Both the position numbers and the translations under genes were made by a program. A stretch of 52,812 nucleotides of DNA, taken from NCBI GenBank assembly GCA_024644015.1, contig JAHELV010000024.1, positions 1 through 52,812 of the forward strand. The letters run 5' to 3'. The DNA comes from Nitriliruptorales bacterium. Its GTDB lineage: Bacteria > Actinomycetota > Nitriliruptoria > Euzebyales > JAHELV01. Below are positions 3,741-10,316 of this stretch, in pieces (position 1 is the first letter of the stretch; each line of letters begins with the position of its first letter). The notes under the pieces are model-generated. The model searched no databases. It worked only from the letters and a program-made list of their open reading frames with translations, and had not been told where the DNA came from.

Positions 3741-6158
3741 CTAGCGCGCCCCTATCGCGACGTAGCCCACCCGTTCGGCGCCGTGGCGGACCTCACGGTC
3801 GAAGGACCGCTCCTCCTGCATCCGCACCCGGGCCGTCCGCGACGTTATCGCGTCGTGTCGAAGGACGACGGGGTCGCCGCCCCGAGCGGTCTGGCCGGCG
3901 GCGATGACCCGCGGCGTCGCGAGCCACCGGCCGAACCGGATGCGCTTCCACTGGTGGGTCACCGACACCGATGTCACACCGGTCCAGATCGGACGACCGT
4001 CGATGCGGCCTCGACCGGGTGTGAGCGCCAGGTAGTGGACGGTCTCCTGACCGTGCCGTCGACCGCGCCGCTCAGCGGCTTCGTTGCCCTGCAGCCGCGC
4101 CTCGAAGCCGGCGGCGCCGACCCTGCGGACGCGCACCGTCGCGGCGCGTCGGTCGAAGTCACTGACCACCTGGGGGATGACGATCGGGGTGCGACCGAGT
4201 TCAGTGTCGAACCGGGCCCGACGCCAGCGCCCATCCCCGGTGAACGCGCCGGCCTCCAGCGCCACGTCGCCGATCTGGTGACGCCCCGGCTCGGCGGCGA
4301 TGAACGACAGCGTCTCGAACGTATGCCGGCTGCGCAGATGTGGCCAGGTGTCCAGCTTGAGCTCGAACCCGTCGGTCGTGACGTTGCGGACCCGGGCCAT
4401 CACCGGTCTGCCGCCGTTCGACGACGCCGCCCCGGCCGCCACGACCGGCATACGCTCGAACGGATGCTCGAAGGTCACGGGGATCCAGCGTGCCGTGGAT
4501 CCCTGTGGGAGGGTGACGCTGCCGGTCTGGACCGCAGCACTGACATGTGGGGCAACGGGCGCGAGCCGGAGGATCTCCGCGACCGAGGGCACACCCCGCT
4601 CGTCGAACACGAACAGCAGGTAGCGCCCGGGCGGCGCGATCCTGGCGTTGCGTGGCGCAGTGACGGTCAGCCGACCATCGGCCTGGTCGAAGTCGAGCTC
4701 CATGAACCGCTGATCCATGTCGAAGCTGTGCGTCACCGACCCCGTGCGGACCAGTGCGACCTTCGAGATCTGCTGCGCGCCGGCTACACCGACGGCGAAC
4801 GATGTGCCGTAGTCGAGGTCGCCCACGCTGGTGATCTGCGGCCGGGCGGCCAGCCGACCCGACCCGTCCTCGTCGAACAGATAGGGCGGATAGTAGATCT
4901 CGGCGTTGAGATTGGTGACCGGCCCTGGCGGGCCGCCGCCGGCGGTCAGCACGGTACCGTCCGGCAGCAGCAGCGCCGACGAGTGGTACAGGCGGGCCTT
5001 GGCGGCGGCCGCACCCTTGCGCCAGGTGCCCGTGTCGGGGTTCCAGATCTCGACGTACCTGGTCGCCGCGTCGAGTTGCTGGTTGCGACTCGCCCCACCG
5101 CTGACGAGCACGTGGCCGTCGGCGAGCACGGTGGCGTCGGACCACGCACGGTACGACCGCAACGATCCGGTCTCGGTGACCGTTGGCCGTGCCCCGTTGA
5201 TGTCGATGACAGAGGCCTTGCCGTCACGCCGGGTCAGCAGGATCTTGCCGACGTCGAACATCGCAGCCGGTGTCCTGTTGTCCGTGGAGGGACCCGGGTA
5301 GGTGCCGACACGGGTGACGGCGCCGCGGCCCGAGGGGTCGAGTGACCACATGCCACGGTCACCCTTGGTGACCACGAACACGTTCCCATCCGGAGCGACC
5401 CAGCTGCGCGGATACCACCAGCGCCCATAGCCGTAGACGTCGTGGGACGCCGCCCCGGGCAGCCTGCGCCAGCCGTTGACGGCGCTGTAGACCTCGGGGA
5501 CCACGGTGGGATTGGCCGTCTGGTCATCACGCCCACCGTGAACGAGCACCTCGCCGTTCGGCAGCGTGGTGGCGGTCGGGTACCAGCGTGGGTACGACAT
5601 CTCGTCAGCGAGCCGCGTCAACGCGTTCGTCTGTGGGTCGAACACGTTGACGTCGTTGACGGCGTCGTTGAACCCTCCACCGGGGGCGCCGTTCTCCTCG
5701 CCTCCGGTGATCAGGACGCGGCCCGTGGACAAGACGGTCTGTGCGCTGCAGAACAGGTTCGTCTTGGTGTGCACCGGCAGCGTCGTGTGGCTGTTCGCGC
5801 TGAGCCCGCGGGACGGGTCCCAGACGTCGTAGTCGAAACCGTACGACGGCCGGCCGGCCGTCACGCCGTAGGTCAAGACCTTGCCGTCGGGAAGCAGGAT
5901 CGCGTTGAGCGCCCCGAGTGGCCACGGGGCCGCGGACGACCATGCACCTGTGACGTGGGGTCTGGCCGTCTGCTGGATCGCAGCGGCGCTCGTACCGGGA
6001 TCGTCGCCCCGGTCGATGGGGCCGGTCGGTCCGATGTCGGTGAACTCGTCCCCGCTGACCGTTGCGGCATGCGCTGCTGGAGACGCCACCGGCATGAGCG
6101 AACAGACGAGCGCGAGCGGAATCGACGACGCTGCAACGCGCAGACGCAAGAAGAGCAA
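3741..6158 (-). CDS. Secreted galactose/glyoxal oxidase-like radical copper oxidase with C-terminal lectin-like repeats
   Basis: 805 residues. The start is a TTG preceded by a strong GGAGGT at 5-nt spacing. A Sec signal peptide ends near residue 31 (AHA-A). Kelch repeats (about 80-400) form the propeller. The copper and cofactor positions of the galactose/glyoxal oxidase family appear complete. Cys137 (in FCSAQ) and Tyr193 (in RWYPT) would form the Tyr-Cys cross-link. Tyr391-His392 (in RLYHSSALLLPDG) and His477 (in GSVTHSFD) would be the remaining ligands. The Ig-like DUF1929 domain follows (about 436-535). After it come about 265 residues holding three divergent copies of an 80-90-residue sandwich resembling H-type lectin modules, with recurring patterns such as W-I-P-V-T-F and V-R-V-R-x-V. 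The family oxidises alcohols or aldehydes to give H2O2. I infer extracellular, polysaccharide-directed oxidation. Confidence 0.85.
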   Translation of the reverse strand: MLFLRLRVAASSIPLALVCSLMPVASPAAHAATVSGDEFTDIGPTGPIDRGDDPGTSAAAIQQTARPHVTGAWSSAAPWPLGALNAILLPDGKVLTYGVTAGRPSYGFDYDVWDPSRGLSANSHTTLPVHTKTNLFCSAQTVLSTGRVLITGGEENGAPGGGFNDAVNDVNVFDPQTNALTRLADEMSYPRWYPTATTLPNGEVLVHGGRDDQTANPTVVPEVYSAVNGWRRLPGAASHDVYGYGRWWYPRSWVAPDGNVFVVTKGDRGMWSLDPSGRGAVTRVGTYPGPSTDNRTPAAMFDVGKILLTRRDGKASVIDINGARPTVTETGSLRSYRAWSDATVLADGHVLVSGGASRNQQLDAATRYVEIWNPDTGTWRKGAAAAKARLYHSSALLLPDGTVLTAGGGPPGPVTNLNAEIYYPPYLFDEDGSGRLAARPQITSVGDLDYGTSFAVGVAGAQQISKVALVRTGSVTHSFDMDQRFMELDFDQADGRLTVTAPRNARIAPPGRYLLFVFDERGVPSVAEILRLAPVAPHVSAAVQTGSVTLPQGSTARWIPVTFEHPFERMPVVAAGAASSNGGRPVMARVRNVTTDGFELKLDTWPHLRSRHTFETLSFIAAEPGRHQIGDVALEAGAFTGDGRWRRARFDTELGRTPIVIPQVVSDFDRRAATVRVRRVGAAGFEARLQGNEAAERRGRRHGQETVHYLALTPGRGRIDGRPIWTGVTSVSVTHQWKRIRFGRWLATPRVIAAGQTARGGDPVVLRHDAITSRTARVRMQEERSFDREVRHGAERVGYVAIGAR

Positions 6159-6497: not shown

Positions 6498-7988
6498 TCA
6501 CTGCGTCTCGTAGGCCGCGATCACCGGCGCGAACCGCTCTACGGCGGCCGGGTCGTCGAGGTCGGCCAGCGCGACGATCGCGGTCTGTACACCGACGTCG
6601 GCGAGCAGCCTGAAACGACCGATGTGATCATCGATCGTGCCGGCCAGCGAGCGCTCCGCATAGGACTCCGCCGACAGCGACGAGCCGGCGGCCGCGGCGA
6701 CACGCCGCACGAGATCGGCACGGTCGGCGCCCACGAGCACCGACGACAGGTGGGTGACCTCGATGTCCGCGATGTCACGACCGACGTGCCCGCAGTGTGC
6801 ACGCAGGACCTCCAGCTTGTGCTTCACGCGATCCGGCTCCCCCATGAGGTTGCAGGCGTCGGCGTACTGCGCGACCAGACGCAGCGTCACACGCTCACCG
6901 CCGCCGCCGACGAGGATCGGCACATGCTCGGAGATCGGACGCGGATAGCAGACGGTGTCGCGAGCGCCCAGGACCGCGCCGTCGAACTGCGGCGTACCGG
7001 CCCCCCACATCCGGGGCAGCAACTGCAGCGCGTCCTCGAGCAGTGCGAGTCGCTCAGGCGGCGGCGGCAGCGGCCAGCCATACGCGTCGTGCTCGCGACG
7101 GAACCACGCGGCGCCCAGACCACACACGGCGCGACCGCCGCTGAGCACATCGAGGGTCGCGACGATCTTGGCCAGATGGGAGACGTTGCGGAAGGTGATC
7201 GCGCTGACCAGCACGCCCAGGCGGCAGCGCGTGGTGACCGCGGCGAGGTAGCCCAGCGTCGTGTAGCTCTCGAGGATGTCCTCCCACTCACGGCCGACCT
7301 GGGGGATCTGGATGACGTGGTCGCCGACCCACAGGCTCGAGAACCCGACCTCCTCGGCCGTCCTGGCGATCGCGGCGATGCGGCCGGCTGTCTCGTGTGG
7401 CCGGCCGGGCCATTGGAACGCGGAGATGTGCAGACCGAACCGCATGCCGACGGGCTCCTGTCGTTGGCGCGCTGCCGCCGCAGGCGTGTGCAGCAGCGCA
7501 GTGGGGGCGATCGTGACGTCGCCGGGCGCGAACACCCGCTCGAAGCCGTCTGCGTGCACCTGCTCACGCACCAGCGGCCAGGCACGCAGTTGCGCGGCGA
7601 GGGCTTTCGCCGGCACGGGCCGGTCCCGGCCTCGGTTGCGTTCCCGACACGTTGCGGCAGGTTCGTCGAACGCGACCGCGTAGCAGGGCACGGCATGGCG
7701 CCGGGCACGATCGATGTAGCCGCGGCGCCGGTCGTCGTCGAGCGCAAGCGAGTCGATGACCGTCAGCAGACCCCGACGCAGCCGGCGCTCGACCACCTCG
7801 TCGAGTAGTTCGAACGCGTCCGTGCCGGCCCGCTGGTCGTGCGGCCCCTCCCCCACCAGCGCGCGCAACGCGTCGCTGGAAACCACCTGTCCGGCGCGGA
7901 ACTGTGCGCGAGCCCAGTGTGACTTCCCGGCGCCCGACGGCCCGACCAGCACCACGAGCGCCCGTGTCGGAAGCCGCACCTCGTCCAC
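6498..7988 (-). CDS. Fusion of a P-loop polynucleotide-kinase-like domain and an F420-type LLM oxidoreductase
   Basis: 496 residues from GTG 7988, chosen because AGAGGA lies just upstream; a TTG at 8012 is the longer alternative. Residues 1-150 are a small P-loop kinase (Walker A GPSGAGKS near 15-22, then a VVSSDALR segment and an arginine-rich lid ERNRGRDRPV), similar to AAA/PNK-type kinases. Residues from about 182 (MRFGLHISAFQWPGRP) to the end form a luciferase-like monooxygenase barrel of the F420-dependent LLM class, with typical SLWVGDH, GYLAAVT and PRPISEHVPILVGGGGE segments. F420 dependence is inferred from the family. The junction contains an ATG (7445) with AGGAG 9 nt upstream, so a separate oxidoreductase may also be made. 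It lies 14-38 bp downstream of the metallo-hydrolase gene and is probably cotranscribed with it. Confidence 0.82.
   Translation of the reverse strand: MDEVRLPTRALVVLVGPSGAGKSHWARAQFRAGQVVSSDALRALVGEGPHDQRAGTDAFELLDEVVERRLRRGLLTVIDSLALDDDRRRGYIDRARRHAVPCYAVAFDEPAATCRERNRGRDRPVPAKALAAQLRAWPLVREQVHADGFERVFAPGDVTIAPTALLHTPAAAARQRQEPVGMRFGLHISAFQWPGRPHETAGRIAAIARTAEEVGFSSLWVGDHVIQIPQVGREWEDILESYTTLGYLAAVTTRCRLGVLVSAITFRNVSHLAKIVATLDVLSGGRAVCGLGAAWFRREHDAYGWPLPPPPERLALLEDALQLLPRMWGAGTPQFDGAVLGARDTVCYPRPISEHVPILVGGGGERVTLRLVAQYADACNLMGEPDRVKHKLEVLRAHCGHVGRDIADIEVTHLSSVLVGADRADLVRRVAAAAGSSLSAESYAERSLAGTIDDHIGRFRLLADVGVQTAIVALADLDDPAAVERFAPVIAAYETQ
7443..7459 (-). promoter_or_regulatory. Possible internal ribosome binding site and start at the LLM domain boundary
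   Basis: AGGAG (7455-7459) precedes an in-frame ATG (7443-7445) by 9 nt, exactly where the LLM domain begins (MRFGLHIS). This placement at a domain boundary suggests either a relic of two formerly separate genes or a second translation start. Confidence 0.4.
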
Positions 7989-8026: not shown

Positions 8027-8839
8027 CTAGAGGCGGTCGGCCAACTCGGCGACCCTGGCGTCGGCATCCTCCTCGACCGGCTCACCGTGCCCGAACAGCA
8101 ACGTTTCGAACTGCAGCGCCGACAGCTTGCGCACCGACTCGATTGCCGTGGTCATGTCGGCGGTGTACGCCGCGTCGGGACCGGCGACGCCGCCGCCATC
8201 GGCGGCTCCCACCAGCGCGTCGCCGGCAACGAGGACACCACCGGTCGGATCGAGCACGCTGATGTGACCGGGCGTGTGGCCCGGCGTCGCGACGATCCGC
8301 AGGCCCAGCACCTCGTCGCCGTCGGCGACCGGCTCGACCTCCTGCGCGACATTGATCGCGAGCAGATCGGCCTCACCGGCGTACGCCCGTGCGTTGGCCG
8401 CTTCGAGGATCGCCGCCGCGCTGCCGATGTGATCGGGGTGGTTGTGCGTGAAGATCACGTGCTCGACCGCGTACCACCCCAGCCCCAGTTCCGTCAGCGC
8501 GTCCTCGATGTCGGTCTCGCTGCCCTTGACACCCGCGTCGACCACCACCACCTGGTCGTCGCTGACCAGCAGGTAGGCCGAGACGAAGCCGAGATCGACA
8601 CGGCGCCAGTCAAAGGCCGCGGCGGATGGCGGCTCGGACGGTTCGCTCGACGGCGCGGACGTCGAGCTGTCCGCGTCCACGCCGGACCCCTGCGGCGGCG
8701 TCGACGGCACCGGTTCGGCGACGCCGGCGGGACTGTCGGACGCGCAGGCGGCGGTTGTGCCGATGATCATGAGACCCGCGCCCGCCCGCGTGGCGTGGGC
8801 GAGGAACAGGCGCCGGCCGTACCGGCGGGCGGCTTGCAC
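8027..8839 (-). CDS. Tat-exported metallo-beta-lactamase-fold lipoprotein
   Basis: 270 residues from GTG 8839, with GAAGGAG 6 nt upstream. The reading frame extends further upstream, but that part overlaps a pseudogene remnant and has no supporting signal. The N-terminus carries a twin-arginine motif GRRLFLA (about 8-14), a hydrophobic stretch and a lipobox-like TTAAC (Cys32), then a Ser/Pro/Glu-rich linker to about 75. The hydrolase domain has the metal motif THNHPDHIG, a later GHTPGH, an AGDAL and the final GHGEP, all typical of MBL-fold hydrolases (glyoxalase II-like subgroup). It is predicted to be a lipid-anchored zinc hydrolase outside the membrane; the substrate is unknown. The stop codon is close to the AAA-LLM fusion start, suggesting an operon. 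Confidence 0.85.
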   Translation of the reverse strand: MQAARRYGRRLFLAHATRAGAGLMIIGTTAACASDSPAGVAEPVPSTPPQGSGVDADSSTSAPSSEPSEPPSAAAFDWRRVDLGFVSAYLLVSDDQVVVVDAGVKGSETDIEDALTELGLGWYAVEHVIFTHNHPDHIGSAAAILEAANARAYAGEADLLAINVAQEVEPVADGDEVLGLRIVATPGHTPGHISVLDPTGGVLVAGDALVGAADGGGVAGPDAAYTADMTTAIESVRKLSALQFETLLFGHGEPVEEDADARVAELADRL

Positions 8840-8896
8840 GTCCGTCTCCTTCGTGTGGTCGAGCGGATCCGGATGGTGGCCAGCATATAGAACGCC

Positions 8897-9132
8897 GAGA
8901 TCGACCTGGGCTTTGGATCGGCGGCCCACGAGGTCGACCATCCCCAACCCGGCTCGGCCGAGGCCGATCCGGGGCGCTGGCTCACGTCGATCGCTGCGGC
9001 CTGCTGTGGGACGTCGCAGCCGACGTCTGGTCGTCGGCAGCGATCGCGGCGCTCGACCTGCCAGCGTCGACGCTGCCACCGGTCGTCGGCTCCGCCACGG
9101 TCGCCGGTGTGCTGCATGCGCCCCTGAACTAA
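8897..9132 (+). pseudogene. Decayed FGGY-family carbohydrate kinase (xylulokinase-like) remnant
   Basis: Two pieces of protein in different frames resemble one FGGY kinase. Frame A (from 8897, directly after an in-frame TAG) reads EIDLG, then EVDHPQPGSAEADPGRW, matching the start of the ATP-binding region and the family's typical HPQPGWAExDPxxWW stretch. Frame B (ending at TAA 9130-9132) reads GLLWDVAADVW and IAALDLPASTLPPVVGSA, matching a block that normally lies about 150 residues further on. I infer internal deletions and at least one frameshift. No start codon or complete domain survives. The assignment is from memory of family motifs, not from a search. Confidence 0.55.
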
Positions 9133-9299
9133 CACTGAGCAATATAGATACTACACAACGGTTTGTTCTTCTACCTTGTGTACGGTTGTCACTACCGCAA
9201 ATGCATGATTGCTGCCAGGACACGGCATGGTGCGCACTATGGATTCGTCATGTTCTGTGCAATGCTGGCGAGGTCGCTGTGTTCGAACATGAAGGAACG

Positions 9300-10316
9300 A
9301 TGCCAGGCACCGATGCTCACATGTATCGGCTGGGGTTGGGTCTTGCGACGCTTCTGATGGCGATCCAACTCACCGAGAAGGAACCCGACGAACGTCGCCG
9401 CGCCCGCAAACAGTCGGTGCTCCAGGAGAAGTGGGCGGTACTGCGGAGCACGTTCCCCGACGAACTGGCGGACCTGCAGGGCTACGGTGGCACCGGTCCG
9501 TCGGTGCGCCAGCTGACCGCCGCCTTCGAGCGTGCGACCGGCCCTTGGAGCGCCGCACGTCGCCGTGCGCTGCTGATCGACGTGTTGATGGGCGACCCGT
9601 TTGCGCCCTACGAGCTGAAGGTCTCCGTCGAGCACGCGCAGAACGCAGTCCACTCCGTCGCTGTGCCCATCGGCCTCGACGACGATGAGATCACTCGACT
9701 GTGGCTGGTCTGGAACGACGCGTTGACGGCCTACCGGCCCTCCCGCTGGCGCAAACCGGATCAGACGTCGAAGAACATCCCCGCGCTGACGACCGGTGAG
9801 CTCGTCCTGCCACCACCGCGGGCCGACACGACCAGCGGCGGAGCGTCGGCGGACGCTCTGGCCAGCGACCACAACCTCGCGTTGCTGGCGGGTGGGAGCC
9901 TGTCCGCCTCGGACGTCGAGATGGCGGGCGGCATGTGGCTCGTCGCTCCCCAGCCGGAGGACGAACCCGCCGCCGCGGCCCGTCGGTTGCTCGCGCTCGA
10001 GCTCGCCAACGCACGTACCGAGCTGGTCAAGCTCCAGATGAGCCACGCGCTGGTCGTCCAACCCGGACTCGCGGACGCCGTGACCACGGGAGCCGTGATC
10101 GAGGCGCTCGGCGCCATCCACGCCCGCGTCGCAGGGCAGCTCGATGCCGAACGCGAGCGCAACGACGACGACGCGCAACGGATCCGGACACTTCAGGAGA
10201 TGCTCAACGCCATCCAGCTGGCGGAAGAGCAGATCGAACGCGCCGCTGCGGCCGCCACTGCGAGCTCCGGGACGACCGAAGACATCCGACGCACCGCACC
10301 GGAGCCGGCGACGTGA
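9300..10316 (+). CDS. Hypothetical protein, mostly helical, function unknown
   Basis: 338 residues. ATG 9300 was chosen because GAAGGAA lies just upstream; the frame stays open further upstream but runs through the kinase remnant and an AT-rich leader. Residues 1-25 include a short hydrophobic stretch (GLGLATLLMAIQL). The first half is helical with W and R/K clusters (WAVLRSTFPDEL; RPSRWRKPD). The second half has a GGSLSASDVEMAGGMWL segment and a long coiled-coil-like tail (about 240-320), ending in an acidic/Ala-rich region. I do not recognise the family. It is divergent from the metallo-hydrolase operon and convergent with the alpha/beta hydrolase. The 9133-9299 leader is AT-richer and likely holds its promoter. 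Confidence 0.7.
   Translation: MPGTDAHMYRLGLGLATLLMAIQLTEKEPDERRRARKQSVLQEKWAVLRSTFPDELADLQGYGGTGPSVRQLTAAFERATGPWSAARRRALLIDVLMGDPFAPYELKVSVEHAQNAVHSVAVPIGLDDDEITRLWLVWNDALTAYRPSRWRKPDQTSKNIPALTTGELVLPPPRADTTSGGASADALASDHNLALLAGGSLSASDVEMAGGMWLVAPQPEDEPAAAARRLLALELANARTELVKLQMSHALVVQPGLADAVTTGAVIEALGAIHARVAGQLDAERERNDDDAQRIRTLQEMLNAIQLAEEQIERAAAAATASSGTTEDIRRTAPEPAT

Follow-up and report, generated by a model that had tools for sequence, protein, structure and literature searches.

A kinase fold known from nucleic-acid repair and an F420-type redox enzyme form an unexpected pair, and the locus described here raises the question of whether the two truly make one protein, what such a protein might do, and whether a translation start signal lying between them serves to release the second half alone. 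The gene occupies positions 6498-7988 on the minus strand of a 52,812-nucleotide stretch of DNA from a Nitriliruptorales bacterium, hereafter the window. In the window sequence it is a single open frame of 496 codons plus a stop, with a GTG start at 7988, and its homologues share the same N-terminus in alignment. An earlier note, drawn from the sequence alone, had described a PNK-like kinase joined in one frame to an LLM oxidoreductase. Domain searches agree: Pfam places a Pnkp-type P-loop kinase domain (AAA_33, E 2.9e-26) on residues 11-135 (7584-7958, minus strand) and Bac_luciferase (E 4.4e-44) on residues 182-434 (6687-7445, minus strand), the latter region also matching TIGR03560 above its cut-off, and the fusion is conserved in other genomes. 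The oxidoreductase fold continues beyond the Pfam extent to residue 496. Between the two domains, residues 156-181 (7446-7523, minus strand) form a linker that is the least conserved region of the protein (mean share of the commonest residue 0.36, versus 0.62 and 0.65 in the domains). An AlphaFold2 model of the fusion protein is confident (mean pLDDT 91.3, pTM 0.89) and depicts the linker as partly ordered: residues 158-161 form a strand and 168-177 a helix.

Two separate genes might have been wrongly joined in this genome by a frameshift or an assembly error. The earlier note had suggested searching relatives for fused and split versions, and held that its reading would fall if all relatives had split genes and the present frame resulted from a sequencing frameshift. 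What the search returned is a one-frame fusion in many genera: 74 rows, or 69 distinct fusions once near-identical rows were merged, and no case in 127 loci of a kinase-only frame beside a stand-alone oxidoreductase. Since relatives carry the identical one-frame architecture in many independent genomes, we reject the artefact reading, whose probability we consider negligible.

The fusion is present in all three other genomes of the same genus, including G001, where the oxidoreductase is shortened: about 87 residues (query 379-465) are absent in frame from this copy (L009, G001:C52), the kinase half being intact, and the gap reflects a deletion, gene decay or faulty assembly. In the class of the window genome, a full-length fusion was found in 8 of 66 genomes, with G001 counted; a ninth match, in G018, consists of the oxidoreductase only. 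In a phylum sample of 396 genomes, the fusion was detected as one segment in seven, to which a frame check added G008 and G119, and this count is a lower bound at the threshold used. The class of G202 has the fusion in 36 of 395 genomes. Among the matches listed (the best 80 loci), the genera represented are Kribbella, Nocardioides, Pseudonocardia, Phycicoccus, Kineosporia, Antrihabitans and Salsipaludibacter, and several metagenome-assembled Acidimicrobiia also carry the fusion. One carrier (L038) bears an Acidobacteria label, and in a Nakamurella copy (L062) the kinase part has no in-frame alignment. Plasmids gave 33 matching records out of 72,556, none covering 80% of the query, so that the plasmid records revealed no fusion.

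A quick tree built from 121 oxidoreductase domains groups 46 fused rows and two 'solo' rows in one clade (SH-aLRT 100). The tree program reports three label changes between fused and solo, which would be explained by one gain together with these two solo rows (L052 and L068): both begin at or near a contig end, so that a kinase half may just be absent from the assembled sequence. The pairwise identities of the two domains are only moderately correlated (r 0.58 over 2701 pairs). We regard the fusion as genuine and conserved; it looks old, it is common to many actinobacteria and it probably had a single origin within them.

Turning to the kinase half, the NCBIfam Pnkp model TIGR04075 is matched over model residues 2-154 only (E 8.1e-35), at a score of 116.6 bits versus a cut-off of 750 bits, which leaves the protein outside the full bacterial Pnkp family. 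The nearest solved chains by sequence are 4gp6 (E 3.6e-22) and 4gp7 (E 4.5e-22), with 4jst and 4mde as further near structures. All four are 171-residue entries titled 'Metallophosphoesterase' and correspond to the kinase domain of Clostridium thermocellum Pnkp. In that enzyme, K21, S22, D38, R41, R116 and R120 are catalytic, and K22, S23, D39, R42, R117 and R121 of the fusion align to them, the chain index being one higher. When either S or T is accepted at position 23, the full set is found in 67 of 74 rows, corresponding to 62 of the 69 distinct fusions, which places these on the side of the Pnkp-type kinases; in the other 7 of 69, R117 or R121 is altered. Across the whole fusion protein, seven residues (K22, D39, R42, D79, D223, H224 and Q227) are unchanged in all 74 rows. 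The N-terminal half would be an ATP-dependent kinase related to the 5'-hydroxyl kinase domain of bacterial Pnkp, either by descent from it or as its sister. No complete Pnkp scores above the cut-off in the window's own genome. In a congener, Pnkp-like gene pieces lie across several frames (L138, G002:C62:33875-34828) and represent a broken or badly assembled Pnkp.

The oxidoreductase half scores 244.5 bits against the NCBIfam model TIGR03560 (F420_Rv1855c), whose curated cut-off is 231.4 bits, and would be a TIM-barrel hydride-transfer enzyme of this F420-dependent group. Structure searches with the complete two-domain model as query return oxidoreductases only. The best fold matches are the F420-dependent Mer (Z 32.5) and the FMN-dependent SfnG (Z 31.4); because the two match nearly equally, the fold does not separate F420 from FMN, and F420 is here a predicted cofactor. 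The namesake of the family, Rv1855c, is cited as an F420-dependent oxidoreductase, and discussed as a possible resistance gene, in parts of PMC11502347.

Whether F420 is available to the host was approached through its synthesis genes. The window's own genome contains CofD and CofE; CofG and CofH have no match there at E 0.001, which makes the F420 supply uncertain. Eight genomes, the window's own G000 (C71:4908-6557) and its relatives G001, G002, G003, G018, G030, G034 and G035, have CofE and CofD above cut-off and no match to CofG or CofH at E 0.001, and they may import Fo or possess an unknown Fo synthase. As carriers occur both with and without CofG/CofH, we discarded the idea of a tie between the fusion and F420 synthesis.

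The neighbourhood of the gene offered no operon clue to a substrate. We clustered neighbours in 38 fusion loci, counting groups without the fusion itself and without opposite-strand groups that overlap it. The widest groups comprise 8 and 7 loci, most of them confined to Kribbella or Nocardioides, and no partner gene recurs widely across genera in these 38 loci. In the window, a metallo-beta-lactamase-fold gene (8027-9223, minus strand) lies upstream on the same strand and ends 38 bases before the fusion start codon; within loci reaching 1.5 kb per side, this gene was found next to the fusion in no locus but the window's own, which is present twice. Also in the window are a galactose-oxidase-like kelch protein (3741-6158, minus strand), which matches Glyoxal_oxid_N and, toward its C-terminus, an H-type lectin domain, and a 519-aa frame (8757-10316, plus strand) that has no Pfam match at E 0.001 and whose true start may lie further in. 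A role in a defence system was considered and dropped, PADLOC having returned only a weak oxidoreductase match.

What, then, of the start signal between the two halves? The earlier note had pointed to AGGAG followed by ATG at the domain boundary, and both are there: a candidate Shine-Dalgarno (SD) sequence, AGGAG, at 7459-7455 on the minus strand and, after a spacer of 9 bases, a candidate internal start, the in-frame ATG of Met182, at 7445-7443. A boundary ATG is present in 13 of the 74 fusion rows, and 10 of these 13 are preceded by an SD core (5 or more bases, located 4-11 bases from the ATG), as opposed to only 4 of the 405 other in-frame ATGs of the 74 fusion genes. The enrichment at boundary ATGs is real. 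Moreover, in genes whose ATG stands at position -2, the SD is found one codon earlier than in genes with the ATG at position 0, a joint shift that keeps the spacing usable, and AGGAG persists while the codon preceding GAG varies between CAG, AAG and GAG. These three observations argue for an internal SD and ATG that are actually used, so that the gene would yield two proteins, the complete fusion and a free oxidoreductase that begins at Met182. We nevertheless find this reading doubtful. The SD and ATG are kept in only 10 of the 69 distinct fusions, which is not the conservation expected of dual initiation; the signal is absent from the congener G003, as well as from G008, a member of the genus to which G006 and G012 belong, and its distribution over a 45-fusion tree takes 5 changes. 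An independent-pair test of ATG versus SD is not significant (median p 0.125), the pairs being too few to reach 0.05. Finally, when the ten positive genes are resampled synonymously, an SD arises with a probability of 0.70-0.98, and no codon-level excess indicative of selection on its synonymous sites is observed: the string largely follows from the residues Q, E and K of the linker. Loss in relatives, the tree changes with a non-significant pairing, and the lack of codon-level selection together disfavor a maintained function. Hence the signal announced by the earlier note stands, whereas the separate oxidoreductase that it might produce is disfavored.

The same signal may have a historical explanation, namely that it is the now decaying remnant of the start of an oxidoreductase gene that once stood by itself and later became fused to a kinase gene lying upstream. 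This is what a signal situated at the domain start and scattered patchily over one large clade would suggest, and many solo oxidoreductases among the matches listed align from query residue 182 onward. The pre-fusion arrangement itself was not seen, however, because none of the 127 loci has a kinase frame adjacent to a stand-alone relative, and we accept this history only tentatively, as a serious possibility. Most likely, the internal start is either such a relic or a by-product of the linker residues, and we rank these two accounts ahead of dual products; possibly, it is still weakly used in some lineages.

Our preferred interpretation, which we hold with moderate confidence, is that of one two-headed enzyme combining a putative kinase with F420-type redox activity in a single pathway, whose fusion would have arisen once in actinobacteria and then been retained as a unit. 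The kinase would phosphorylate a hydroxyl, and the oxidoreductase would serve that same short pathway and probably share the compound with it, as the earlier note had supposed; catalysis by this predicted two-domain enzyme, its use of F420 and the shared substrate are proposals. Counting against the interpretation are the nearly equal fold match to SfnG, the failure to find CofG and CofH in the window's own genome, the altered R117 or R121 in 7 of 69 fusions, the shortened oxidoreductase of G001 and the moderate correlation between the domains' pairwise identities. A quite different role for the kinase can be imagined, in which its phosphorylation of a ribityl-type cofactor or precursor, converting Fo into Fo-5'-phosphate or riboflavin into FMN, would supply or tune the cofactor of the fused oxidoreductase, the internal start providing free oxidoreductase in some lineages. 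We regard this combined scenario as highly improbable. If the two-headed enzyme is the correct interpretation, the fusion narrows the substrate search for this branch of TIGR03560 to compounds that could undergo phosphorylation as well, and the open F420 question therefore becomes testable with one purified protein.

A literature search yielded no description of this kinase-oxidoreductase architecture, and no mention of the fusion occurs in the portions consulted of PMC11502347, PMC8498797, PMC6279831 and PMC4411300. Public genome annotation probably contains this architecture already.

The two halves can each be set against known systems. As in the N-terminal kinase of bacterial Pnkp, the P-loop, SSD..R and R-N..R motifs are present in the fusion, whose kinase is 45% identical over 132 residues to that of a full Pnkp in G018; unlike in Pnkp, what follows the putative kinase is an oxidoreductase, without a phosphatase or ligase domain. 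The C-terminal half is like the TIGR03560 class of LLM enzymes both in its score, above cut-off, and in its TIM-barrel fold, which matches Mer and Fgd, but the fused members form a clade of their own, separate from the stand-alone TIGR03560 members sampled. Mer, the F420-dependent methylene-tetrahydromethanopterin reductase, is the top structural match (2.6 A over 290 residues); yet it is only 23% identical and has no kinase domain, and the fusion falls far below the cut-off of the NCBIfam Mer models. What is new in this protein is the pairing, each of its two families being known already.
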